The position numbers were made by a program, and so were the translations under genes. The notes beneath the pieces are model-generated. The model was not told where the DNA came from. It did no database searches and saw only the letters and a program-made list of their open reading frames with translations. Of a stretch of DNA of 46,574 nucleotides, positions 3,193 through 32,611 are shown piece by piece. Origin of the DNA: Pelodictyon luteolum (GTDB taxonomy: Bacteria > Bacteroidota > Chlorobiia > Chlorobiales > Chlorobiaceae); NCBI GenBank assembly GCA_020721225.1, contig DYNE01000015.1, positions 1 to 46,574 of the forward strand, in the 5' to 3' direction. The first letter of the stretch is position 1, and each line of letters begins with the position of its first letter.

Positions 3193-3606
3193 ATGTTTTT
3201 TATTTCACCATCCATTCAGATACCGGAGAGCGAGATTGAGCTGCATCCCATGCGATCGCAAGGCGCTGGTGGCCAGAACGTCAACAAGGTCGAAACCGCA
3301 GTGCATCTGAGGTTCGATATTTCGGGTTCTTCTCTCCCGGAAGAGATCAGGGAGCGGCTGTTGCAGATGAAAGACCGCCGTATTACCTCGGAAGGGGTCA
3401 TCATCATCAAGGCACAATGCTTCCGCAGCCAGGAAAAGAACCGGGAGGATGCGATGCGCCGCCTCCAGGAACTGCTGCAGCGGGCCCTGCATGTGCCCGT
3501 TGCAAGGAAGCCGACCAGGCCTGACCGGAATTCCAGGGAAAAACGCCTCGACATCAAGAAACGGCGTTCGGAAGTGAAGACAATGCGGAAGCGAATCGAT
3601 ACATAG
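3193..3606 (+). CDS. arfB: Alternative ribosome-rescue factor / peptidyl-tRNA hydrolase ArfB
   Basis: From the ATG at 3193 the protein has 137 residues, close to E. coli ArfB (140). It has the class-I release-factor signature with GGQ at residues 26-28 inside AGGQNVNKVETAVHLRF, where the Gln would drive hydrolysis of peptidyl-tRNA on stalled ribosomes. The C-terminal tail is strongly basic (RPDRNSREKRLDIKKRRSE), which in ArfB enters the empty mRNA channel. The usual SGPGGQ is SQGAGGQ here, a mild change. An upstream in-frame GTG at 3181 is possible, but the ATG gives the family length. AGAGG lies about 12 bases ahead. Confidence 0.88.
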   Translation: MFFISPSIQIPESEIELHPMRSQGAGGQNVNKVETAVHLRFDISGSSLPEEIRERLLQMKDRRITSEGVIIIKAQCFRSQEKNREDAMRRLQELLQRALHVPVARKPTRPDRNSREKRLDIKKRRSEVKTMRKRIDT

Positions 3607-3630
3607 GGGAGCACGGCATGCCGTGCCCCT
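3605..3630. repeat. Palindromic hairpin after arfB
   Basis: The palindrome GCACGGCATGCCGTGC (3611-3626) is extended by AGGG/CCCT arms with a small bulge. It overlaps the arfB stop codon and sits between the convergent arfB and M23 peptidase genes. There is no T-run, so it may be a mobile REP-like hairpin rather than a classical terminator. Confidence 0.5.
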
Positions 3631-3679
3631 GCATTACCACCCATCACCATCAACCGTCAACTGGTTGCAGTCTACCGGC

Positions 3680-5041
3680 CTACAACACCGGGGTCTGTTT
3701 TTTCGCCGTTCCTGCAGCCAGCATCCTGTTGTTGTCAAGCTGTGTTTTCAGCACCGATATTTCTGCCAGCAGGCTGTTTTTTTCCTGCCTTGAAAGTCCC
3801 GGCTCCGGTTTCGAAGCTGAAAGCGCCGTAAGCGGATTGACAGGCTTTCCGTTATGGATCATACGAAAGTCAAGGTGCGGGCCGGTCGAGCTGCCTGTCG
3901 AACCAACATAGCCGATAATCTCGCCCTGACGTACCCTGATGCCGTTACCCGCTTTCGGGGCATAGCGGCTCAGGTGCAGGTATTGGCTGTGGTATCCTCC
4001 CGGATGTTTCAGGGTAACCATGTTGCCGGCTCCGCCTTTGCTGCCTCTGAAAATGACGGTTCCGTCAGCGACCGCTTTCACCGGAGTTCCGGAGCGTGCG
4101 GCCATATCCACTCCGCCATGGAAGTGGCGCGTTCTGCTGATAGGATGAACCCTGTAGCCGTAGCCGCTTGAAATTCGGGAATAACTGCAGGGCTGAACAA
4201 ACTGCGCAGTTTGTTCAGGTGCTTCGAGCGCATTTCCTTTTTCGTCGTAATATCCGGTTTTGCCTTTAGAGTCGGTGTACCGGTATGCGGTATAGTTCTT
4301 TTTGTTTACCGAAATCTCGGCGGCAATGATTTTCCCGGTGCTGATAAATTCGTCGTCAAGCCATTTCTCTTCGAAAAGCAGGCGGAATTTCGAGTCGGGT
4401 TTGATGTCCCGCTTGAAATCGAGGCGTCCGGCAAACAGCTTTCTTGTCGGCCGCATCAGCCCGGACCGTTCTTTTTGGGCGAGTTCCGAAGCGAGGGTTT
4501 CAGACACCGACCCTTCGATGACGGCAAGGCGGGTTTCATATTCCTTCGCGTCGCGCCGTACCTTCAGGTCACCGCTTCCGCTTTCACGTTCGATATGTAT
4601 GGTTACGGCGCGGTCCTGAAAATAGGTGAAACGCTGAAAAAGACCTTCGCCGTTTTTTTCTATTTCATAATTCTGTCCGGGGCGGAACCCGCGGATTGAA
4701 AAACTTCCCTTGAGCTGTCTGGTTATGGCGTCGACATCCTTTGGCGTGAGGCCGTTCGAAGTGAGAATGGTGTAGAGCGATTCGCCGGGTTGTATGGTTT
4801 TTTTATCTATGGCTGGTTTTTTAATTTCGGATTCATCCTCGATGACAACGTAATCGCCGTCGCCGGTAAAGCCGAGTTCGTCGATATAGGTGCCGGGTGC
4901 TGAGCTGAGAATGGTGAATATAAAAAAGATCATAACAAGAGAGGCTGCGGAAAAGGGGAGCCAGAACGAGCGATCGGCGCGGCTCAGATAGTGTTTAAGC
5001 TGGACGGCTGCAGCTGTCAGGAACGGTTTGAGTGTTTTCAT
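3680..5041 (-). CDS. M23-family murein endopeptidase, membrane-anchored
   Basis: The 453-residue protein has one N-terminal membrane segment (about residues 27-47), then a LysM-like/OapA-like region (IQPGESLYTILTSNGLTP), a linker, and a LytM/M23 zinc peptidase domain (about 285-400). Metal ligands are visible: His308 and Asp312 in HFHGGVDMAA, His356 in YLHLS, and His389 in GPHLDFRM. The last motif reads HxD instead of the common HxH, a variant I recall from Bacteroidetes and Chlorobi relatives, so it is probably still active. The family cuts peptide cross-links in peptidoglycan for cell growth or division (compare MepM). The gene is single, and convergent with arfB. Confidence 0.85.
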   Translation of the reverse strand: MKTLKPFLTAAAVQLKHYLSRADRSFWLPFSAASLVMIFFIFTILSSAPGTYIDELGFTGDGDYVVIEDESEIKKPAIDKKTIQPGESLYTILTSNGLTPKDVDAITRQLKGSFSIRGFRPGQNYEIEKNGEGLFQRFTYFQDRAVTIHIERESGSGDLKVRRDAKEYETRLAVIEGSVSETLASELAQKERSGLMRPTRKLFAGRLDFKRDIKPDSKFRLLFEEKWLDDEFISTGKIIAAEISVNKKNYTAYRYTDSKGKTGYYDEKGNALEAPEQTAQFVQPCSYSRISSGYGYRVHPISRTRHFHGGVDMAARSGTPVKAVADGTVIFRGSKGGAGNMVTLKHPGGYHSQYLHLSRYAPKAGNGIRVRQGEIIGYVGSTGSSTGPHLDFRMIHNGKPVNPLTALSASKPEPGLSRQEKNSLLAEISVLKTQLDNNRMLAAGTAKKQTPVL

Positions 5042-5240
5042 GCGTAAGTGTTTTCAATACCGGATTCGGCAAAAAAGTATTCATAGGTTAACAGCCCTTA
5101 AGTTAAGCATATGTTTTTATAAAAATAATTCAGTTACTTTTAAAATACGGTTTCGGGGGGATTTTTTCTTCCTGGCGGTATGTTATCAATGCTTTCACGT
5201 CCGACTCGTGTGGGGATGAGCCATTTTAAAACGTAAAAAC

Positions 5241-5918
5241 ATGCCTCTTTCCAAAAGCTTCATACCGGAAATAGACCGGTATTGCGACCGGTGGTGCGAG
5301 CGCTGCCCCTTTACGTCGCGGTGCCGTCACTATTACCTCGAACAGCAAGCGCCGCCGCCGGGCGTTTCCGGTGAACTCGATATTTTCAATGCGGAATTCT
5401 GGATGCGGATGCAGCGGGAACTCTCCGCAGCCGTGCATCGCATAAACCTGCAACCCGAAGCTCAGCCGTTATCGCCTGACGACGTGCTTTTCTCTTTTCA
5501 TCGTTCGGCTCGCGAGCACCCATGTTCCCTTAAAGCGCTCGAATATGCCGGACTGCTCGATCAGTGGAAGAATTCCGATCGGATATGGCCGCTTCTTCCA
5601 GAAGAAGCCGGGGAAATAATCCGGCAATATCACTATTTTCTCTATCCGAAACTGGTACGGGCTATCGAAGTCGGCCTGACATCCGGTGTCGGTTCTCCTC
5701 CCGGAGAGGCAGCGGAGGGTACGGCCAAAACGGTACTTATCGCCATCGACCGTTCTCTTGCGGCATGGGGGCTCGTGTACCAGGCATATCCCCGGTATGA
5801 GGATGATGTACTTCGGCTGTTGCTCCATCTCGACCGTCTCCGGAAATCGGTGGAGGCTGTTTTTCCTGATGCAAGGGCTTTTCATCGTCCCGGTCTGGAC
5901 GATTATGTAACTCTATAA
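5241..5918 (+). CDS. Hypothetical protein with N-terminal cysteine cluster
   Basis: I do not recognise this 225-residue protein. Near the N-terminus it has a tight cysteine cluster, CDRWCERCPFTSRC (residues 14-27, spacing C-x3-C-x2-C-x5-C), then His-Tyr-Tyr. That cluster could bind zinc or an iron-sulfur centre. The rest is predicted helical, without membrane segments, and contains aromatic-rich stretches (EIIRQYHYFLYPKLVRAIEV). The next gene, encoding a DUF4438 protein, starts 15 bases downstream, so the two are probably one operon. I would expect a soluble cytoplasmic protein; no function can be given. Confidence 0.65.
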   Translation: MPLSKSFIPEIDRYCDRWCERCPFTSRCRHYYLEQQAPPPGVSGELDIFNAEFWMRMQRELSAAVHRINLQPEAQPLSPDDVLFSFHRSAREHPCSLKALEYAGLLDQWKNSDRIWPLLPEEAGEIIRQYHYFLYPKLVRAIEVGLTSGVGSPPGEAAEGTAKTVLIAIDRSLAAWGLVYQAYPRYEDDVLRLLLHLDRLRKSVEAVFPDARAFHRPGLDDYVTL

Positions 5919-5933
5919 TAAACGTTGTTTATC

Positions 5934-6848
5934 ATGCTGAAAACCAATGAATCCGCTCTTGTCGAATTTCTTCTGCAATGCCAGCCCGGTCATCCGAGAA
6001 CGCGGGGCAACTGGGAAGTCGATCATCAGGGGAATCCGTTTCTGCTTCCTTCTATCGGCGGGATCACCCTCAACGTGCAGGTCGGCGATCCGGCTTTCGG
6101 TTTGGCAGGCGATCATGTCGAGCCCGGTGTCAGTTGTACCGCAGATACCCATAAACCATTTGAGCATCCCAATGTGGGACTGCAACTATACTCGTGCGTT
6201 GGTAATACCGCTGTCGTAACATCCGGAGAAGCGAAAGGGGAGACCGGAACGGTTATCGGCCACCACGGAGGGTCCGAACATCTCATCGTGGAATTTGCCC
6301 GTTCGGTCAAGGAAAAAATGACTTACAGCGATACCATCATGATCAGGGCGAAAGGACAGGGCTTGAGACTGACCGAATATCCCGCCATAACGCTTTTCAA
6401 CCTCGATCCCGATCTTTTGAAGAAGCTGAAAATCCGCGAAGCCGGAGACGGGACGCTCGAAGTTCCGGTAACTACCGTGGTTCCGGCAGTCTGCATGGGT
6501 TCCGGTATCGGATCCGCCCATGTGGCCAAGGGTGATTACGATATCATGACCAGCGACCCCGAAACCGTCAGGGAATACGGTATCGACAGGATCCGTTTCG
6601 GCGATTTCGTTGCGCTCATGGATCAGGACAACCGGTACGGCAGGGCGTACCGCAAAGGCGCTGTCTCCATCGGCATCGTCGTGCACAGCGACTGCCTCGA
6701 AGCCGGTCACGGGCCCGGTGTGACCACCATCATGACCTGTGCTGAATCTTCAATCAGGCCGGTGATCGATCCGAATGCCAATATCGCAGATCTGCTCGGC
6801 ATCGGGAGTGGCGTGGGCCCTGTCGGCAAGAAGAAAAAGAAGGTATGA
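5934..6848 (+). CDS. DUF4438 domain protein
   Basis: Starting at the ATG at 5934 the product has 304 residues; an in-frame TTG at 5925 is less likely. The sequence matches my memory of the DUF4438 family: an N-terminal Pro/Arg-rich segment ([12 protein letters not shown]), [20 protein letters not shown], the central [12 protein letters not shown], and late motifs [19 protein letters not shown] and [15 protein letters not shown]. The family is thought to be a beta-rich fold related to SAM-binding or small-molecule-binding proteins, but its role is unknown. Conserved His, Asp and Cys residues suggest a ligand or metal site. The basic tail GKKKKKV is unusual. It sits in an apparent operon with the Cys-cluster gene. 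Confidence 0.72.
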
Positions 6849-6989
6849 TTGTTTTTATGGTATCAAGACTTTCAATCCCTGAATTAAGTTGGTTTATCCC
6901 TGCGGTATAGGGGAATTTTTTTTACTGCATTTTGGTTCCCTTAAATTGGTGGTTACTTATTTAAATGATTTTAAAATGGAGAGTAAGCC

Positions 6990-7409
6990 ATGTCATTAAA
7001 GCTATATGGAAGAGACCCGTTAAAGATGTTGGAGGATGTTTTTAACGACAAGGTATCGCCTTTTTTTTCTTCAATGATTACCCCTTCCTTCAAGGTCGAT
7101 ATCAGTGAGGATGACAAGGCTATCTATGTGTCTGCCGATATGCCGGGCATCGTAAAGGAAGATGTCAAGGTTTCCATGGAAGATGATGTTTTGTGCATAA
7201 GTGCGGAGCGGAAGCAGGAGGAGGAGGAGAAGAAAAAAGGCTATCACCGCATCGAACGTACCTGGGGAAGTATGAGCAGAAGCTTCACGGTAGGCGATAA
7301 CGTGGATGCCGAAAACATCGATGCCGCATACGATAATGGGGTTCTGAAAATTACGCTTCCTAAAAAGGAGCCCGAGCCTAAAAAAGGCAAGGAGATCGAG
7401 GTGAAGTAA
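6990..7409 (+). CDS. Small heat-shock protein, Hsp20 family
   Basis: The 139-residue protein is a typical alpha-crystallin-type holdase. The core beta-sandwich runs from about residue 30 to 125 with the conserved motifs VSADMPGIVKEDVKVSMED and YDNGVLKITLPKK, the second being the A-x-x-x-G-V-L signature. Such proteins hold unfolding proteins for later refolding. GGAG lies about nine bases before the ATG. The 141-base leader region is AT-rich; no CIRCE element is visible. The gene converges on bchE and ends at a strong shared terminator. Confidence 0.93.
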   Translation: MSLKLYGRDPLKMLEDVFNDKVSPFFSSMITPSFKVDISEDDKAIYVSADMPGIVKEDVKVSMEDDVLCISAERKQEEEEKKKGYHRIERTWGSMSRSFTVGDNVDAENIDAAYDNGVLKITLPKKEPEPKKGKEIEVK

Positions 7410-7425
7410 GTGACAATGGAACATG

Positions 7426-7465
7426 AAAACAGAAAACCTCCGGAACCCCGGAGGTTTTCTGTTTT
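7426..7465. terminator. Bidirectional terminator between hsp20 and bchE
   Basis: A perfect 18-bp stem (7426-7443 with 7448-7465) closes a four-base loop, AACC. The outer ends are A-rich on the left and T-rich on the right on both strands, so it can stop transcription from hsp20 and from bchE. Confidence 0.88.
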
Positions 7466-7487
7466 CTGATGATAAGGCCTGCCGTAA

Positions 7488-9128
7488 TCAGCAGTTTCGT
7501 ACGGTCGATGAGGTACGATCCTTGATGGTGGTTTCATCGAATGCATCCCAATCGTGTTCGTCGTGCTCGCGCTGGTATCCTGCTTCCTTCAGACCAAAGC
7601 TCATATCGGCAACCATTTCCGGACGCAGTTCCTTCAGGTTTTTCACCTCGTCCTGAGTGAGGATTCTCGACTTGTCGAATCCAAGGTCGATCTCGATCTT
7701 GCGGTTCTTGGTCTTCACGCGATCGATATCGTAGAAACGTTTGGTGATGGTGGTTTGCGCGAAAGCTTTCAGACATCCGAGCATGTATTTACGGACATAC
7801 GGGTCCTTGATCCAGGGATAGCCGAAGAATGTTTTACGCGCATAGAAGCGGGCATAGGATTTCAGCACGCCTTTGAGCACATCTTCTCGCTCCATGTTGT
7901 CCGGCTTGATGATGGGCGATACGAAGTTATATTTGGAATAATCGCGTACCTCCACCTTGTCGCCGAGCTCCTTGAAGAGATCCGAAAACGGCCACGGGGT
8001 GTAGATGGTCCAGTTCGCCATATCGGGATCCCAGTCTTTGCAGAGCTGATAGGTTTCCTCGATGGTTTCCGGCGTTTCATGTTCGAGCCCCATAACGAAC
8101 TGCGCTTCGGCAACGATTCCGTTTTTCTGCAGCAGCTTGATGGCAAGTTTATTCTCGTCAATCGTGGTTTCCTTGCGGAAACGGTTCAGGTTCATCTGGC
8201 TTGCCGCTTCGGTGCCGAGCGAGACGTGCACCAGTCCGGCCTTGCGGAAGAACGGCAGCAGATCTTCATCGCGCATGATGTCCGTTACCCGGGTGTTGAT
8301 ACCCCAGGTAACGCCGAGCTTGCGGTCGATAAGTTCTTGGCAGAGCGCGACGAACTTCTGTTTGTTGATGGTTGGTTCTTCATCGGCAAGGATAAAGAAA
8401 CCAACATTGTATTTCTTTACCAGAATTTCGATTTCATCAACAAAATGCTTCGGACTGCGCGCGCGGTAACGGCGCCAGAACTGCCATTGCGAGCAGAAGG
8501 TACAGGTAAAGGGGCACCCTCTTGCAAAGTTAGGTACCGCAAGGCGGCAGTTTAGAGGCGTATAGATGTACTTATTCCAGTCGTACAGGCTCCAATCGGG
8601 AGTCAGGGTATCAAGGTCTTCAATCACAGGGTGAGCCGGAGTAGCAAATACCTTGCCGTCATTGTCGATATAGGCAATACCGGTAATGTCAGCACGGTTT
8701 TCTTTGTCGGTTCCCGCTGCAATCTGCTTTACGAGGTTCACCGCAATTTCTTCACCCTCCCCACGAATGACATAATCGGTTTCGGGCGCTTCGCTCAGTA
8801 CCTGCGGGTACATGAATGTCGAGTGAATACCTCCCATGATCGTCCTGATTTTCGGATCGACCTTCTTGGCGATTTTCATGATATCCTGCGCCTTGAAAAT
8901 GGAGGGCGTGATATTGGTTGCCATCACAATATCCGGTTTGTTCTGCCGGATAATTTCCTCGATCTGATCATCCGGGAGGTCGTCGGCCATGGCGTCAACA
9001 AAACGTATTTGATCGAACCCGGCCTGTTTCAGGGCGCCACCGATATAGGCAACCCAGCTTGGCGTCCAGTTACCGGCAATTTCAGCTCCACCTGAATGAT
9101 AATTAGGCTGAATCATCAGTATTTTCAT
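7488..9128 (-). CDS. bchE: Anaerobic Mg-protoporphyrin IX monomethyl ester cyclase BchE
   Basis: The 546-residue enzyme has an N-terminal B12-binding-type domain (about 1-140) and a radical-SAM core with the CxxxCxxC cluster Cys205, Cys209, Cys212 in GCPFTCTFC. BchE closes the isocyclic fifth ring of bacteriochlorophyll using water as the oxygen source, with cobalamin, SAM and a 4Fe-4S cluster, which suits a strict anaerobe. GGAGG lies about nine bases before the ATG. It is the last gene of a bchH-bchM-bchE order, following the pathway (Mg insertion, methylation, cyclisation). The family also has BchQ/BchR methylases and other B12 radical-SAM enzymes; the length and position next to bchM support BchE. 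Confidence 0.92.
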   Translation of the reverse strand: MKILMIQPNYHSGGAEIAGNWTPSWVAYIGGALKQAGFDQIRFVDAMADDLPDDQIEEIIRQNKPDIVMATNITPSIFKAQDIMKIAKKVDPKIRTIMGGIHSTFMYPQVLSEAPETDYVIRGEGEEIAVNLVKQIAAGTDKENRADITGIAYIDNDGKVFATPAHPVIEDLDTLTPDWSLYDWNKYIYTPLNCRLAVPNFARGCPFTCTFCSQWQFWRRYRARSPKHFVDEIEILVKKYNVGFFILADEEPTINKQKFVALCQELIDRKLGVTWGINTRVTDIMRDEDLLPFFRKAGLVHVSLGTEAASQMNLNRFRKETTIDENKLAIKLLQKNGIVAEAQFVMGLEHETPETIEETYQLCKDWDPDMANWTIYTPWPFSDLFKELGDKVEVRDYSKYNFVSPIIKPDNMEREDVLKGVLKSYARFYARKTFFGYPWIKDPYVRKYMLGCLKAFAQTTITKRFYDIDRVKTKNRKIEIDLGFDKSRILTQDEVKNLKELRPEMVADMSFGLKEAGYQREHDEHDWDAFDETTIKDRTSSTVRNC

Positions 9129-26680: not shown

Positions 26681-26750
26681 CGGTAGTCAGTAGCCGGTAG
26701 CCAGTAGCCGGTAGTCAGTAGCCGGTAGTCAGTAGCCGGTAGTCAGTAGC
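26681..26750. repeat. Five tandem copies of a 14-bp unit
   Basis: CGGTAGTCAGTAGC occurs five times in a row; the second copy has one T-to-C change. The array runs on into a G-rich segment and the 63-bp element at 26782-26844. A degenerate version of the unit recurs, inverted, at about 32598-32640. Confidence 0.9.
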
Positions 26751-26781
26751 CGGTGAAGAGGGGGGAGAGTGTGGGCGGTTG

Positions 26782-26844
26782 GCGGGTTTATTTGTCCATG
26801 TCTGTCGGTGTCCGTCCGTGTCAGTCCTTTCAGTGCATTTCGTG
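26782..26844 (-). repeat. 63-bp dispersed repeat, copy A (inverted)
   Basis: This segment is an exact reverse complement, over 63 bases, of 32497-32559. Similarity continues more loosely on both sides, so the whole element is about 180-195 bp (about 26681-26875 and 32460-32640). It occupies most of the 390-base gap between pyrK and the first arsA-like gene. Together the two copies bracket the csmC-csmA block. Confidence 0.9.
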
Positions 26845-26990
26845 AAGAAAGGGGAGAGAGTGGGCAGTGGGTGAAAACGGGGATGGATTTTTAAACGTGG
26901 AGATAAGTGTGTATGTTTCATTCTTTGTAGTGTCCGGGGAGAGTTATATCTTTTGTCTTTGCATTGTATCACAAAACCAACGTCCGGTTC

Positions 26991-28208
26991 ATGCGTATTT
27001 TAACATTTACAGGTAAAGGCGGAGTGGGTAAAACCAGCGTGTCAGCCGCAACCGCTGTCCGTTTATCAGAGTTGGGCCATCGCACACTTGTTCTTTCAAC
27101 CGATCCGGCTCACAGTCTGTCGGATTCATTCAATCTCGCTCTCGGTGCCGAACCAACCAAAATCAAGGAGAACCTGCATGCCATCGAGGTTAATCCTTAT
27201 GTTGATCTGAAGCAGAACTGGCAGTCAGTTCAGAAGTACTATACAAGAATTTTTATGGCTCAGGGCGTTTCAGGCGTCATGGCCGACGAAATGACCATTC
27301 TTCCCGGTATGGAAGAACTGTTTTCTCTCCTGCGAATCAAACGGTATAAAACCGCCGGACTGTACGATGCGCTTGTGCTCGATACCGCTCCGACCGGTGA
27401 GACCCTTCGCCTTCTCTCTCTGCCCGATACGCTTTCGTGGGGCATGAAGGCCGTTAAAAATGTCAATAAGTATATAGTCAGGCCACTCAGCAAGCCGCTG
27501 TCGAAAATGTCCGACAGGATTGCTTACTACATTCCTCCCGAAGACGCCATCGAATCGGTCGATCAGGTTTTTGACGAACTTGAGGATATTCGGGAAATTC
27601 TTACCGATAATGTGAAGTCGACCGTTCGGCTTGTCATGAACGCCGAGAAAATGTCTATCAAGGAGACCATGAGGGCTCTCACCTATCTGAATCTTTACGG
27701 CTTCAAGGTCGATATGGTTCTGGTGAACAGGCTGCTTGATACCAATGAAAACAGCGGATACCTTGAAAAATGGAAGGGTATTCAGCAGAAATATCTTGGT
27801 GAGATAGAAGAAGGGTTTTCTCCGCTTCCGGTCAAGAAGCTGAAAATGTACGAGCAGGAAATCGTCGGCTTGAAGGCTCTGGAGATGTTTGCCCGCGATA
27901 TGTACGGAGATACCGATCCCTCGGATCTCATGTACAACGAGCCGCCGATCAAGTTTGTTCGGAATGGCGATATTTATGAAGTGCAGCTGAAACTCATGTT
28001 CGCCAATCCCGTCGATATCGATGTTTGGGTTACCGGCGATGAGCTTTACGTACAGATCGGCAATCAGCGTAAAATCATTACGTTACCGATCAGCCTTACA
28101 GGTCTCGAACCAGGCGATGCGGTCTTCAAGGATAAATGGCTTCATATACCTTTTGATCTCAACCATCAGGGGAAGCATCAGAATCAGAAAGAGTTCAACA
28201 AAGTGTGA
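26991..28208 (+). CDS. ArsA/Get3-like ATPase with C-terminal Hsp20-like domain (copy 1)
   Basis: From the ATG at 26991 the protein has 405 residues; an in-frame TTG at 26964 would only add a poor leader, and the second copy also begins MRI. The deviant P-loop [16 protein letters not shown], switch I STDPAHSLSDSFNL and switch II DTAPTGETLRLL are intact. About residues 320-395 (FVRNGDIYEVQLKLMFANPV, VWVTGDELYVQIGN) form the Hsp20-like domain known from bacterial ArsA homologues. The CxxC of eukaryotic Get3 is absent and so are arsenite-site cysteine patterns, so arsenic export is unlikely. Get3 relatives carry hydrophobic proteins to membranes. With csmC and csmA following, a role in chlorosome protein delivery is inferred. 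Confidence 0.85.
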   Translation: MRILTFTGKGGVGKTSVSAATAVRLSELGHRTLVLSTDPAHSLSDSFNLALGAEPTKIKENLHAIEVNPYVDLKQNWQSVQKYYTRIFMAQGVSGVMADEMTILPGMEELFSLLRIKRYKTAGLYDALVLDTAPTGETLRLLSLPDTLSWGMKAVKNVNKYIVRPLSKPLSKMSDRIAYYIPPEDAIESVDQVFDELEDIREILTDNVKSTVRLVMNAEKMSIKETMRALTYLNLYGFKVDMVLVNRLLDTNENSGYLEKWKGIQQKYLGEIEEGFSPLPVKKLKMYEQEIVGLKALEMFARDMYGDTDPSDLMYNEPPIKFVRNGDIYEVQLKLMFANPVDIDVWVTGDELYVQIGNQRKIITLPISLTGLEPGDAVFKDKWLHIPFDLNHQGKHQNQKEFNKV

Positions 28209-28265
28209 CCTTACAGCTGAAAGGCCGTTTGTTTGATGAGGGAATTTTATTAATTTTTATCATCA

Positions 28266-28282
28266 GTCAGACATTGTCAGAC
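28266..28282. promoter_or_regulatory. Direct repeat upstream of csmC
   Basis: GTCAGAC occurs twice at 28266-28272 and 28276-28282, ten bases apart (one helical turn), and a related GTCAGAA is at 28312-28318. Same-face spacing is typical of activator or response-regulator sites. It lies 65-80 bases before the csmC start. No good -10 box follows at the expected distance. Confidence 0.4.
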
Positions 28283-28347
28283 GTAATTTAAAAAACCCGA
28301 AAACGGGGCTCGTCAGAAGCGGCGCCTCAATTAAACTGGAGATAAAC

Positions 28348-28767
28348 ATGTCAGAATCCTATCAGAAACTTCGCAAAGACTTTAAAGAGCTTGATTTTAC
28401 CGATCGCCTCACCTTTCTTGCCGAGAGCGTCCTGTTGACCGGCCAGAGTGCCGTCGTTGGTGGTCTCGAGCTTGCCGGAAGTGTGGTTGAAACCGTTACC
28501 GGCACAGTCGGTTCTCTTATTGATGCATCGGGAGTGGGCAATATGCTTGGCCGTACCGGTGGCGTTGTCGGAGAAACCATCGACAGGGTTGCCATTACAG
28601 TCAAGGACGTTTCCCGTTCTGCCGGTGAACTGTACAGCGATGCTGTGAAAAATGTCGAGAATGTTACCGATAACGCAGCCAAAGCGATCGGCGATGCAGG
28701 AGTCACAGCTTCGGAAGCAGTCAAGAATATCGCAGGTTCTTTCCAGAAAGGCGCACCGAAAAAATAA
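28348..28767 (+). CDS. csmC: Chlorosome envelope protein CsmC
   Basis: The 139-residue protein has a charged N-terminus ([20 protein letters not shown]), a Gly/Val-rich hydrophobic middle ([20 protein letters not shown]) and an Ala/Val-rich amphipathic tail ending PKK. Size (about 14 kDa), composition and position before csmA match CsmC. It is a non-pigment protein of the chlorosome envelope that affects chlorosome shape. GGAG precedes the ATG by about nine bases. In C. tepidum csmC and csmA form one operon, and the 128-base spacing here agrees. CsmC and CsmD are paralogues; position makes CsmC the choice. Confidence 0.88.
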
Positions 28768-28800
28768 GGGAATCGTAACAAGGATTAATAAATTCTTTGT

Positions 28801-28839
28801 TTGTGTTTTTCTGTTTATTCCCGTAAATTAGCTTATAGT
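28801..28839 (+). promoter_or_regulatory. Possible internal promoter for csmA
   Basis: The csmC-csmA gap has TTGTGT (28801) with TAAATT (28824) at a 17-base spacing, and a better -10 box, TATAGT (28834-28839), with a weak -35 partner. A separate csmA transcript would explain the very high level of this baseplate protein. An RNA-processing site between the genes is an equal alternative. Confidence 0.35.
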
Positions 28840-28895
28840 TTCTATTTCCTAATTTCAGGTGGATTTCCAATAATTAAATTCCAAAAGGAGGAATT

Positions 28896-29141
28896 ATGAG
28901 TGGTGGAGGTGTATTTACCGATATCCTGGCAGCAGCTGGCCGTATTTTTGAAGTTATGGTCGAAGGTCACTGGGAAACCGTTGGGATGCTGTTTGATTCA
29001 CTGGGCAAAGGTACCATGAGAATCAACCGCAATGCTTACGGAAATATGGGCGGCGGTGGCGGAAGCCTTCGCGGATCATCGCCTGAAGTTTCAGGTTATG
29101 CTGTTCCAACCAAAGCAGTTGAATCAAAGTTTGCAAAATAA
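28896..29141 (+). CDS. csmA: Chlorosome baseplate protein CsmA (pre-protein)
   Basis: The 81-residue precursor is plainly CsmA. It begins [20 protein letters not shown] and carries the bacteriochlorophyll-a ligand His25 in VEGHW. The mature form is about 59 residues and binds one BChl a plus carotenoid, forming the paracrystalline baseplate that passes energy from the chlorosome to the FMO protein. The C-terminal 20 or so residues (from about SSPEVSG to SKFAK) are removed in the mature protein of relatives. A perfect AGGAGG lies seven bases before the start, the strongest ribosome site of the region. A strong terminator follows. The protease for the tail is not obvious here. Confidence 0.97.
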
Positions 29142-29166
29142 GCAGACTCTTGATACTGTGTTTAAC

Positions 29167-29203
29167 AAGGCAGTGTAAAGCTCAGGCTTTCACTGCCTTT
29201 TTT
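29167..29203 (+). terminator. Terminator after csmA
   Basis: AAGGCAGTG (29167-29175) pairs with CACTGCCTT (29191-29199); an inner AAAGC/GCTTT stem closes a TCAG loop, and a run of T follows. This is a textbook intrinsic terminator and should end the csmC-csmA message. Confidence 0.93.
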
Positions 29204-29402
29204 GTTTTCCCTTTTTCTGCGCAGTCATGTTATTTTCTTTTTTCCGCTATAGGCAGGGGGATGCGTTTTTTGTTCCCTGTTTCGGAAGAAGCTCTGTGAT
29301 CATCAGCAAGAATCAGTTTGCGGTGGAGTTTCACTTTCTTCGCATATTTTATTAGATTTAAAGTTCAATTGGTAATAAGTGTAACGCGATCGGATACGGG
29401 TA

Positions 29403-31199
29403 ATGGCCACTATTTCTTTATATATTTCCGGGCAGACAGAACTGAACGACGTCAATGAGTTTTTTCAGAAGAACCTCATGAATGCCGGTGAAAATCCTAT
29501 AGCTTTTTTTGATGGGGTTTTTTACGAATCTCATCAGGAGCGGGTAGGCAATATTGTTTTTCAGGATTATCTGGTCTACACCGATAAGGCTGTTTACCTC
29601 TGGGCAAGAGGCGCAAACAAGGATTATCTCGATCGATTCAATCTCGGGACCGTTTCAGTCAACAGCAGGAACAAGGACAGCGCTTTTGCAACGCTCAATC
29701 TCAAGGTCAGGCGTGAAGAAAAAGAACCTGTGTATGTGATTTTCGACATGGTCGAAATACAGGAGGCTGAACTGATTACCAGGCTGCATACGATTATCGA
29801 GTCAACTATTGAAGAAGCGCTTGGGGTCAATTACCGCAAGGATATTCCTGATGCCATTGCCGGGAGAATTCTTCAGGCAGGCAGAGGGATCTGTCCTCAG
29901 CAATCGATTTCAATCGCTTTTGATCAGGGAGCTGCCGTACATCAGGAGAGCAATATCGGCTACGGTCAGGATCTGCTCGAACAGTACAAGGCTTCCATTG
30001 GGTATCCACCTTCGGAAGAGAAGCCGGAACAAGCTCCCCGGCAGCAGCGCCCATCTTCTCAGGGCCATTCAGGCTCTCCGTTTTCGGGAAATCCTGCGGC
30101 TGATGCGCTCAAAGGTCTCGAAAATATTCTTCCTGCCGATCCGGCAGCTCTCAAGCGGATTGCCTCCTCTATAAAAGATATGGTCGGTGAAGCTCCCTTC
30201 AAGCTTCGCGATCAGGTTATGAAAGATCTGCAGCACGTTCCGGGAGATGTCGCTACGGTACTGACGGCGCTTAATGAATTGCTTGCCAATATTGCAGGGA
30301 ATCCGCAGGCCGAGCGTTTCGTCATGACGGCCATTACCACGGCGGTCAGAAATGACGGAGTATTGGGCTCTATCGGAAAAATGCTCAAGCTTACCACAGG
30401 TTTCGGTTCAGGCGGAGGTAAAAAGCAACCATCAAGGCAGGCGTCGGAAAATGACCGGCATGGGCGTGATACCGATTCGTCGCGCAACGATCGGCGCTCT
30501 TCTTTTGATGATGGGGATGACAACTCGACTATCCGCAGAAAAAAAATAACGATCAAGGACGATTCGTCTTCGCATGGTTCCGGTATGTTTTCCGGCGATC
30601 TTCCCGATGATGAGGGTTTGCCTCTTCCAGGTGATCGAAGCCACCGGAACATTGCTTCGGATAATGATGCAGAGAGCGGTATAAAACGTAAAAAAATCAG
30701 CATCAAGGCTGACGACAGTTCAGCATCGGCACTCGTCAAAGATATGATGGCCATGGACACCCCTCCGTCAGAAGCTGTATTTTCACCGGTACAGCCCGGA
30801 GAGGAGCCGCCGGTTCGCCGTAAAAAAATTACTATTGTTGCTGATACCGCTGAAACGGCAGGAAAGGGTTCATTATCCGATTATTCGGAAACATCGGAGG
30901 TACAAGCGCCAATCGCTGATTCCATTCCGGAAGAACGTCCGGTTCAGCGCAAAAAAATAGCTATAGTAGTCGAGAAACCCGAAGACGATGAGACTGGTAT
31001 TTCTGAAGAGATGCTTGCCGGTGTACTTGGCGAATCAGCCGTCGGTCAGGAACGTGCAGTGGTTTATACAACCATAGAGTCCGACAGCTCAGTTGATATG
31101 GAAAATCAGGCAGAGTCAGGCAGTTCCGGCGCCGATAATACAACGGCATCCGATGAACCGCCCATGAATCGTACAATCAAGATCAAGTCTACTCAATAG
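29403..31199 (+). CDS. PH-like domain protein with repeated RKKI basic motifs, unrecognised
   Basis: The 598-residue protein is not a family I can name. Residues about 1-140 resemble the bacterial PH-like fold (beta-rich, [18 protein letters not shown], ending in an amphipathic helix). Residues about 230-345 form a helical domain ([35 protein letters not shown]). The C-terminal half is acidic and probably disordered. It carries five short basic beta-like motifs at about residues 376, 425, 469, 512 and 588: [36 protein letters not shown] and NRTIKIK, roughly 45 residues apart. No signal peptide is seen. It lies between csmA and the second ATPase gene, so an adaptor or scaffold for chlorosome or membrane assembly is inferred. 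Confidence 0.65.
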
Positions 31200-31212
31200 T
31201 TCTGTAAACAAC

Positions 31213-32367
31213 ATGAGAATTATTCTTTATCTAGGGAAGGGAGGGGTTGGAAAAACCACCGTCTCAGCTTCAACGGCAACTGCAATTGCCCGTCGTGGAG
31301 AGCGTGTGCTGATAATGAGCACCGATGTGGCCCACAGCCTTGCTGATGCGTTCAGCGAGGAATTAAGCCAGAATCCGATTGAGGTAGAAAAAAACCTTTT
31401 TGCCATGGAGGTAAACGTTCTTGCTGAAATCAGGGAGAACTGGACGGAACTCTATTCCTATTTTTCGTCGATTCTTATGCATGACGGGGCCAATGAGGTC
31501 GTGGCAGAAGAGCTTGCCATCGTGCCGGGCATGGAAGAGATGATCAGCCTCCGTTACATCTGGAAAGCGGCGAAGTCAGGAAATTACGATGTCATTATTG
31601 TCGATGCGGCCCCAACCGGTGAAACCATGCGTTTGCTGGGTATGCCTGAATCTTACGGTTGGTACTCTGATAAGATAGGCGGCTGGCACTCAAAGGCGAT
31701 AGGCTTTGCCGCTCCTCTGCTTTCAAAGTTCATGCCGAAAAAGAACATCTTCAAGCTGATGCCCGAGGTCAACGAGCATATGAAAGAGTTGCACGGCATG
31801 CTTCAGGATCAGAACGTCACCACATTCCGCGTTGTGCTCAACCCCGAGAATATGGTCATCAAGGAGGCTCTTCGGGTGCAGACCTATCTGAATCTGTTCG
31901 GGTATAAGCTCGATGCAGCCGTGGTGAACAAAATTCTTCCCGAAAGCTCCGCCGATCAGTATCTGCAGAGCCTGATCGACATTCAGCAGAAATATCTCCG
32001 GGTCATCGATAACTGTTTCTATCCGGTACCGATTTTCCGGGCTCATCAGCAGACAGCCGAGGTGATCAATACCGACCGTCTTCATGTTCTGAGTCAGGAG
32101 ATTTTTGGCGATAAAAATCCCTCCGCGGTTCTCTACAGCAACGACAAGACTCAGACTCTCGAAAAAATAAACGGAAAATATGTTCTCAGCCTCTATCTTC
32201 CGAATGTCGAGGTCAAGAAGCTCAATGTCAACATCAAGGGAGATGAACTGCTTGTCGATATCAATAATTTCCGCAAAAGCATTATTCTTCCGAACGTGCT
32301 CGTCGGCAGAAAAACCGAAGGAGCCGATTTTGCGGCCGGGAACCTGAATATCACTTTTGCCAACTGA
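31213..32367 (+). CDS. ArsA/Get3-like ATPase with C-terminal Hsp20-like domain (copy 2)
   Basis: The 384-residue protein has the same design as copy 1: deviant P-loop [16 protein letters not shown], switch [13 protein letters not shown] (Pro of DPAH is Val), switch [18 protein letters not shown], and a C-terminal Hsp20-like domain ([20 protein letters not shown]). Like copy 1 it lacks the zinc CxxC of Get3. Its helical client-binding region differs markedly from copy 1 ([20 protein letters not shown]), so the two may bind different clients or form a heterodimer. It starts 13 bases after the repeat-protein gene and is co-transcribed with it. Confidence 0.85.
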
Positions 32368-32496
32368 TTTTTCCCCGAACATTTTTTTCACTCCACACTA
32401 CCTGCAGCGGGCAGCATCCTTACGGAATGCTGCCCGTTTTATTTGCAACGTGTGGGCGTCGGCTCATAGCCCACGACCCACACTTTCTCCCCTCTG

Positions 32497-32559
32497 CACG
32501 AAATGCACTGAAAGGACTGACACGGACGGACACCGACAGACATGGACAAATAAACCCGC
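32497..32559 (+). repeat. 63-bp dispersed repeat, copy B
   Basis: Exact reverse complement of 26782-26844. It lies between the second ArsA-like gene and folK. The flanking T/C-rich and ACTGGCTACTGAC-type sequences also match copy A loosely in inverted order. The tail of folK is written in this element. Confidence 0.9.
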
Positions 32560-32611
32560 ACACCGCTCAAACTCTTTCCCTCTTCCCCGAATACCGGCTA
32601 CCGAATACTGG

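Follow-up and report, generated by a model that had tools for sequence, protein, structure and literature searches.

Get3d-type ATPases and a predicted PH-like protein form a conserved cassette with csmA and are candidate chlorosome-assembly factors

We analyzed a stretch of 46,574 nucleotides from Pelodictyon luteolum (GenBank assembly GCA_020721225.1, contig DYNE01000015.1, positions 1 to 46,574 of the forward strand; hereafter the window), whose source genome comprises 2.6 Mb in 144 contigs. Its subject is a block of five genes, in which two ATPases of the Get3/ArsA fold (ATPase 1 and ATPase 2) flank the chlorosome genes csmC and csmA and the gene of an unnamed protein, here called RPT. In Chlorobia the whole block is found with csmA; Chloroflexales and the Chlorohelix-type lineage share a version of it, ATPase 1-csmA-RPT. 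A first-pass annotation, made from the sequence alone, had linked the ATPases to the chlorosome; the present data uphold that link and extend it to two phyla, three lineages and a partner protein that tracks csmA. On balance, we favor the view that this cassette helps to build the envelope and baseplate of the chlorosome; the ATPases would be ATP-driven holdases for CsmA and its relatives, and RPT would serve as a platform. CsmA is reported to be the sole chlorosome protein common to three phyla, and budding and aggregation models of chlorosome biogenesis compete (PMC9316378); the chlorosome proteins other than CsmA are described as poorly conserved (PMC10972752). The retention of the cassette with csmA in two phyla provides named, knock-out-ready candidate assembly factors and a testable role for Get3d; the cassette is expected in Chlorobaculum tepidum, a genetically tractable laboratory strain. 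No link between the chlorosome and Get3/ArsA ATPases was found in the literature searched, subscription papers lying mostly outside it.

All five genes are on the + strand in the order given by the first-pass annotation, as judged from the open reading frames (ORFs) and Pfam (Table 1). The stop codon of RPT and the start of ATPase 2 are separated by 13 nt, and the remaining intergenic gaps measure 128-261 nt. The neighboring genes on either side are on the opposite strand and a strong terminator-like hairpin closes the unit; the five genes are therefore treated as one block, their co-transcription being putative. The hairpin was read from the sequence and is not among the 14 sites of a pattern scan.

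Table 1. Features of the five-gene block (window coordinates)
Feature	Coordinates	Strand	Evidence
ATPase 1, Get3d-type by architecture (Get3/ArsA fold + alpha-crystallin domain), 405 aa	26991..28208	+	PF02374 E 9.4e-118; PF17886 ArsA_HSP20 E 4.9e-20; AlphaFold2 (AF2) model vs NosGet3d 8egk
csmC, chlorosome envelope protein C, 139 aa	28348..28767	+	PF11098 E 9.9e-73
csmA, baseplate bacteriochlorophyll a (BChl a)-binding protein, 81 aa	28896..29141	+	PF02043 E 3.1e-36
RPT, unnamed 598-aa protein: predicted PH-like domain, then a helical part and a low-complexity tail that carries KKIxI repeats	29403..31199	+	model, fold; profile match to Chloroflexota homologues E 7e-14
RPT residues 1-172, predicted PH-like fold	29403..29918	+	predicted model and fold comparison
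RPT residues 237-332, helices predicted at low confidence, aligning with Chloroflexota homologues	30111..30398	+	model, alignment
RPT tail motif 1, KKITI	30540..30554	+	
RPT tail motif 2, KKISI	30690..30704	+	
RPT tail motif 3, KKITI	30822..30836	+	
RPT tail motif 4, KKIAI	30951..30965	+	
RPT terminal motif RTIKI, variant form	31170..31184	+	
ATPase 2, Get3d-type paralogue by architecture, 384 aa, 36% identity to ATPase 1	31213..32367	+	PF02374 E 8.5e-84; PF17886 E 2.4e-18
Intrinsic-terminator-like hairpin and T run, 3' of ATPase 2	32406..32440	+	-24.1 kcal/mol, z -5.5, 0/200 shuffles as low

The order of the five genes is kept throughout Chlorobia. csmC is present in 76 of 86 Chlorobiaceae genomes, and at 70 of the 75 csmC loci besides the window all five genes follow one another on one strand; the other five loci lack genes only at contig ends. 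Three other Chlorobia families, sampled through 12 genomes (11 with csmA), retain the order at nine of the 11 csmA loci. Six of these seven exceptions are contig ends, and the seventh (genome G088) is taken up below; in genome G096 the cassette is split across two contigs. Ten Chlorobiaceae genomes are without csmC, three of which are at least 90% complete (G015, G048 and G066) and lack RPT too, through loss or an assembly gap. The ATPases are 87-98% identical to the window proteins within Chlorobiaceae and 63-71% in the other Chlorobia families; the corresponding values for RPT are 51-74% (83% for one truncated copy) and 32-38%. An extra small gene stands between csmC and csmA in at least five of eight listed loci of the other families (L141, L142, L144, L147 and L151); it encodes 70-133 aa with an N-terminus that is Csm-like by eye. 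A 3.3-kb contig filed as Latescibacterota (L234, JAFGMP010000227.1) carries ATPase 1-csmC-csmA at 97-98% identity to the window and is most likely a mis-binned Chlorobiaceae contig.

Named genomes were scanned with a CsmA alignment, and the best 80 of 106 confirmed matches include 29 from Chloroflexota, namely Chloroflexus, Oscillochloris, Chloroploca, Viridilinea and metagenome-assembled genomes without a genus. Among the matches listed, a gene of the ATPase 1 type lies directly upstream of csmA, at 67-513 bp, in all 29 Chloroflexota loci, its product being 48-50% identical to that of the window. One or two detectable RPT homologues and another ATPase follow csmA in 27 of the 29; the two loci without RPT end soon past csmA. 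Homology of RPT between Chlorobia and Chloroflexota was supported by profile comparison (E 7e-14 and 1.9e-11). The two Chlorohelix-type genomes (G498 and G499) possess, in this order, ATPase 1 (52-53% identical), csmA and two RPT genes. In 'Ca. Chlorohelix allophototropha', besides csmA, homologues of just two Chloroflexus chlorosome proteins have been reported (PMC10972752). The genes surrounding the block differ between lineages. The Chloroflexota cassette is closed in 25 of the 29 listed loci by a third, degenerate ArsA-fold protein without a P-loop (L162 14132-15247 and equivalents), a possible pseudo-enzyme partner. A third RPT-type protein of 647 aa is encoded on the second chromosome of G498, away from csmA (G498:C2, L288 6351-8294).

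The co-occurrence of RPT with csmA is nearly perfect in the two phyla. Among 158 Chloroflexia genomes, 35 have both csmA and RPT (G446 being counted as RPT-positive on a partial match, E 1.2e-11), one has RPT only (draft G440), none has csmA only, and 122 have neither. Roseiflexus, a phototroph not known to have chlorosomes, may be among these negatives. In 392 Bacteroidota genomes, RPT was found in 73 of 77 Chlorobia and in none of the 315 others. The expectation that RPT would be absent from relatives without chlorosomes is thus borne out in the other Bacteroidota and, bar draft G440, in the csmA-less Chloroflexia. As the genomes are related, these counts are not independent events.

Both ATPases match PF02374 and PF17886 (ArsA_HSP20). 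The sequence blocks GKGGVGKT, STD.AHSL and D.APTGET, which we take to be the P-loop and switch motifs, show no or hardly any variation among the aligned orthologues. There is no cysteine in ATPase 1 and one in ATPase 2, and therefore the zinc CxxC of the eukaryotic-type Get3 dimer interface is absent from both. The first-pass annotation had ascribed to the ATPases a deviant P-loop with switch motifs, the lack of the zinc CxxC and a terminal Hsp20-like domain, and was right on each count (for the last, see the PF17886 values of Table 1). The AF2 model of ATPase 1 has a mean predicted local distance difference test (pLDDT) score of 79, and its top structural match is NosGet3d (8egk, Z 31.5, 350 residues aligned), spanning residues 1-391; AtGet3d (8elf) gave Z 26.6. 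The archaeal TRC40 3zq6 tied (Z 30.6), but its match ends at residue 309 and covers the ATPase part alone. A Get3-type fold with an alpha-crystallin domain is hence indicated by the model for ATPase 1, and for ATPase 2 by sequence only. For both ATPases, phmmer places archaeal Get3/TRC40 ahead of the solved Get3d structures from a plant and a cyanobacterium, and our trees, the largest of which we use being of 70 ATPases, are without cyanobacterial or plant rows; they were therefore filed as Get3d-type by architecture. So assigned, they fit a published family (Barlow et al. 2023, PMC10248533), some members of which are likewise described as nearer to archaeal Get3. Their scores with the NosAFP equivalog NF050088 (142.7 and 142.3 bits) are below its curated cut-off of 325.

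Get3d has been reported from all cyanobacteria and green bacteria and is retained in plant chloroplasts too; two homologues, one from a plant and one from a cyanobacterium, bind a tail-anchored protein and hydrolyze ATP (PMC10248533). The genes studied here differ from published Get3d in their linkage to csmA and RPT and, within Chlorobia, to csmC as well. The main text of that report makes no mention of the chlorosome or of gene neighborhood, the word 'operon' appearing solely in the title of a reference. With eukaryotic Get3/TRC40 and its GET pathway the window ATPases share the ATPase core and, as proposed here, the handling of hydrophobic clients; apart from the missing CxxC, they differ in that their likely clients are not tail-anchored.

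RPT has no match in Pfam or NCBIfam up to E 0.1, and a sequence search against solved structures returned nothing below E 0.07. Its model covers residues 1-345 and is confident for residues 1-172 (15 of 17 ten-residue blocks with pLDDT above 90), which are predicted to form seven strands and a long helix, consistent with the seven-strand barrel capped by a C-terminal helix of PH-like domains. Comparison of this part with the PDB gave 167 chains at Z of at least 8 and up to 9.9, most of those listed being PH, PTB, EVH1 and Ran-binding folds; the bacterial PH protein 3b77 scored Z 9.4. The Foldseek result was modest, with six matches at E of 0.001 or below, the best at 4e-4. The likeness to the PH superfamily lies in the predicted fold of the first 172 residues, beyond which follow the motif-bearing tail and, before it, a part that the model shows as helical with low confidence. 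The earlier description of a PH-like repeat protein agrees with this picture, the repeats being the short KKIxI motifs of the tail. The pattern [KR][KR][IVM]x[IVM] occurs 175 times in 82 Chlorobia RPT tails versus 5.7 times in shuffles (largest of 1000: 14). It is present in 73 of the tails, and the nine others have KRK or KRR followed by [ST]IxI/V. In 27 tails of the Chloroflexota protein RPTb there are 45 copies versus 1.5 in shuffles (largest 6), with 23 tails positive. As sequences outside folded domains, these motifs resemble the IxI ligands of small heat-shock proteins, whose beta4-beta8 groove binds the IPV motifs of BAG3 (PMC6212398). As in such pairs, one partner bears an alpha-crystallin domain and the other a series of basic I-x-I/V motifs. 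Considering that both ATPases carry an alpha-crystallin domain, docking of the RPT motifs is a natural hypothesis.

Within the assembly role that we favor, the two Get3d-type ATPases would use ATP to hold or deliver the sticky, amphipathic envelope and baseplate proteins. The first client would be CsmA, csmA being the one constant partner gene. CsmA and BChl a alone are reported not to rebuild the baseplate in vitro (PMC4992139). RPT would gather the ATPases at sites of chlorosome growth; contact with membrane or protein would be made through its N-terminal domain, and the basic-IxI motifs of its tail might hold the alpha-crystallin domains as IxI fills the beta4-beta8 groove in small heat-shock proteins. 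We put forward, tentatively and with clear reserve, a more specific version, in which the csmA-linked ATPases and RPT form a multivalent complex: by filling alpha-crystallin domains on several Get3d dimers at once, the RPT repeats would concentrate ATPases loaded with client on the patch of membrane at which CsmA and envelope proteins insert. If this is true, the complex would be the first chlorosome assembly machine shared across phyla, Get3d would gain a function for its alpha-crystallin domain, and two conserved families would join the list on which CsmA stood alone.

A number of observations weigh against the assembly role or its details, the first of them from the genes. In G088 (L144), the first four genes are followed by 1,006 bases to the contig end without an ATPase. 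Two other ATPase fragments of this genome are nearer to the C12 and C42 paralogues, and ATPase 2 therefore seems to be missing at this place. The expectation that both ATPases and RPT always accompany csmCA held in nearly all Chlorobia loci and failed for ATPase 2 in G088; the gap affects the second ATPase, which was the least constant member in any case. Neither of the two Chlorohelix-type loci has an adjacent second ATPase, and Chloracidobacterium (Acidobacteriota), the fourth chlorosome lineage, is outside the 80 of 106 CsmA matches. In the tree of 70 ATPases, the ATPase 1 sequences linked to csmA in Chlorobia, in Chloroflexales and in the Chlorohelix-type pair fall, with two Chlorobia duplicates, into one group of moderate support (bootstrap 90, SH-aLRT 69). 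We had expected the second ATPases of the two phyla to be orthologous and had to reject this. Chlorobia ATPase 2 has as its sister a Chloroflexota paralogue encoded outside the cassette (100/99), the second ATPase of the Chloroflexota cassette groups with an own-genome paralogue on contig C107 (100/100; a long branch flagged by the tool), and a joint clade was rejected (p-AU 0.0003). Different relatives thus occupy the second slot, and the stable core is ATPase 1-csmA-RPT. The heterodimer raised as a possibility in the first-pass annotation would have a different paralogue as its second ATPase in each phylum. In L144 (5268-6273), an ORF weakly resembles sequence found downstream of ATPase 2 in L147 and L148.

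The ATPase family also extends beyond the cassette. The window's genome holds seven full-length PF02374 genes, two flanking csmCA and five elsewhere; the C130 paralogue (88% identical to ATPase 1) and three further ones adjoin genes that are, by eye, unrelated to chlorosomes. In other Bacteroidota, 11 full-length Get3d-type ATPases came from 14 genomes picked mainly for strong PF17886 matches. The forecast that the ATPases would be absent from non-phototrophs was accordingly not borne out. The family is therefore already known, and the interest lies in its link to csmA: the restricted element is the set of genes linked to csmA, RPT in particular. PF17886 itself was tried as a Get3d marker in Bacteroidota and rejected: it matched 321 of 392 genomes, but 7 of 14 control genomes too, including B. 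subtilis, so that weak matches are probably ordinary Hsp20 and were left uncounted.

Further points of this kind come from the proteins, CsmA and CsmC being candidate clients only. CsmA is not known as a tail-anchored protein and CsmC, by eye, is not one, and therefore canonical GET delivery is not simply applicable. The csmA gene is reported to be essential. csmC is reported to be dispensable (PMC12214013), and the authors of the baseplate study also make a case that CsmA and BChl a self-assemble (PMC4992139). As for docking, the motif pattern was picked after inspection of the tails, its enrichment over shuffles being about 30-fold, and the Chloroflexota RPTa proteins contain no tail motif and end in a conserved EIPLRRR. 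The alpha-crystallin domains of Get3d are reported by Barlow et al. not to oligomerize, to have low similarity to other alpha-crystallin domains and to be dispensable for client binding, their role being called unclear (PMC10248533).

An unlikely but serious alternative is that the cargo of the ATPases is lipid, quinone or bacteriochlorophyll, loaded by way of the hydrophobic chamber of Get3d into the chlorosome monolayer as it grows, with RPT as the membrane contact. A lipid monolayer forms the chlorosome envelope (PMC9316378), and the predicted PH-like fold of RPT would suit such a contact. Density consistent with a phospholipid was reported in the AtGet3d chamber, although its authors regard the lipid as possibly nonspecific (PMC10248533). 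Protein clients, moreover, are the best known for Get3 relatives (see also PMC10248533), and the constant neighbor, csmA, is a protein gene. We consider it rather improbable that Get3d proteins are general chaperones of phototrophs whose linkage to csm genes stems merely from one block having been inherited or transferred, with no functional tie. The reported breadth of Get3d and the position of most same-genome paralogues away from csm genes would agree with this, and a single block transfer could account for the cross-phylum order. However, nearly all chlorosome bearers examined retain the block although the genes around it differ between lineages, RPT tracks csmA almost perfectly, and the second slot holds different paralogues in the two phyla, which suggests that the slot matters.

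Quite improbable, in our estimate, is a positioning or segregation device, in which deviant-Walker ATPases would pattern chlorosomes on the membrane like ParA/McdA-type proteins, with RPT as the adaptor; the comparison is with McdA/McdB positioning systems. A ParA-like P-loop, an organelle gene as partner and a multivalent tail would fit this, whereas both ATPases score best with Get3/ArsA models and weakly with MinD/ParA models, and the ATPase 1 model matches NosGet3d over its full length. We know of no counterpart of the alpha-crystallin domain in ParA-type positioners, which also counts against positioning. Arsenic resistance, suggested by the Pfam family name (anion-transporting ATPase) and already doubted in the first-pass annotation, can be dismissed: each protein has one ATPase domain and scores 118.4 or 95.2 bits against the cut-off of 650 for the ArsA arsenite pump (TIGR04291), and no arsB, arsC or arsR was recognized by eye among the ORFs of 22-38 kb, three neighbors having been scanned with Pfam.

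Some Get3d paralogues lie near other csm genes. In the window's genome, the C63 paralogue is about 3 kb from a csmE-type gene (L018: csmE-type PF02043 gene at 3432-3689 and paralogue at 6809-8035, on opposite strands), and several relatives have a like spacing. A Get3-type ATPase was seen in the fetched stretch for six of nine csmE-type loci, an anecdotal count, as several were picked since the same contig already showed an ATPase. An ATPase 1 duplicate in L157 (G027, 3584-7620) and a C42-type Get3d copy in L158 (G045, 4090-7532) lie near small csmE-like genes and others that are, by eye, presumably csmB/F-like, within about 0.8-2.1 kb over the two loci.

No Rfam family reached its gathering score in 20-40 kb of the window, and promoter-scan sites were no more numerous than in shuffles. 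The five-gene block is bracketed by a 111-nt inverted repeat (window 26761-26871 and 32470-32580; 87% complementary, arms 5.6 kb apart), of which no other copy was found in the rest of the window, in six further stretches of the same genome or in seven loci of relatives. Beside its left arm is a 14-base tandem repeat, CGGTAGTCAGTAGC, at window 26681-26768.

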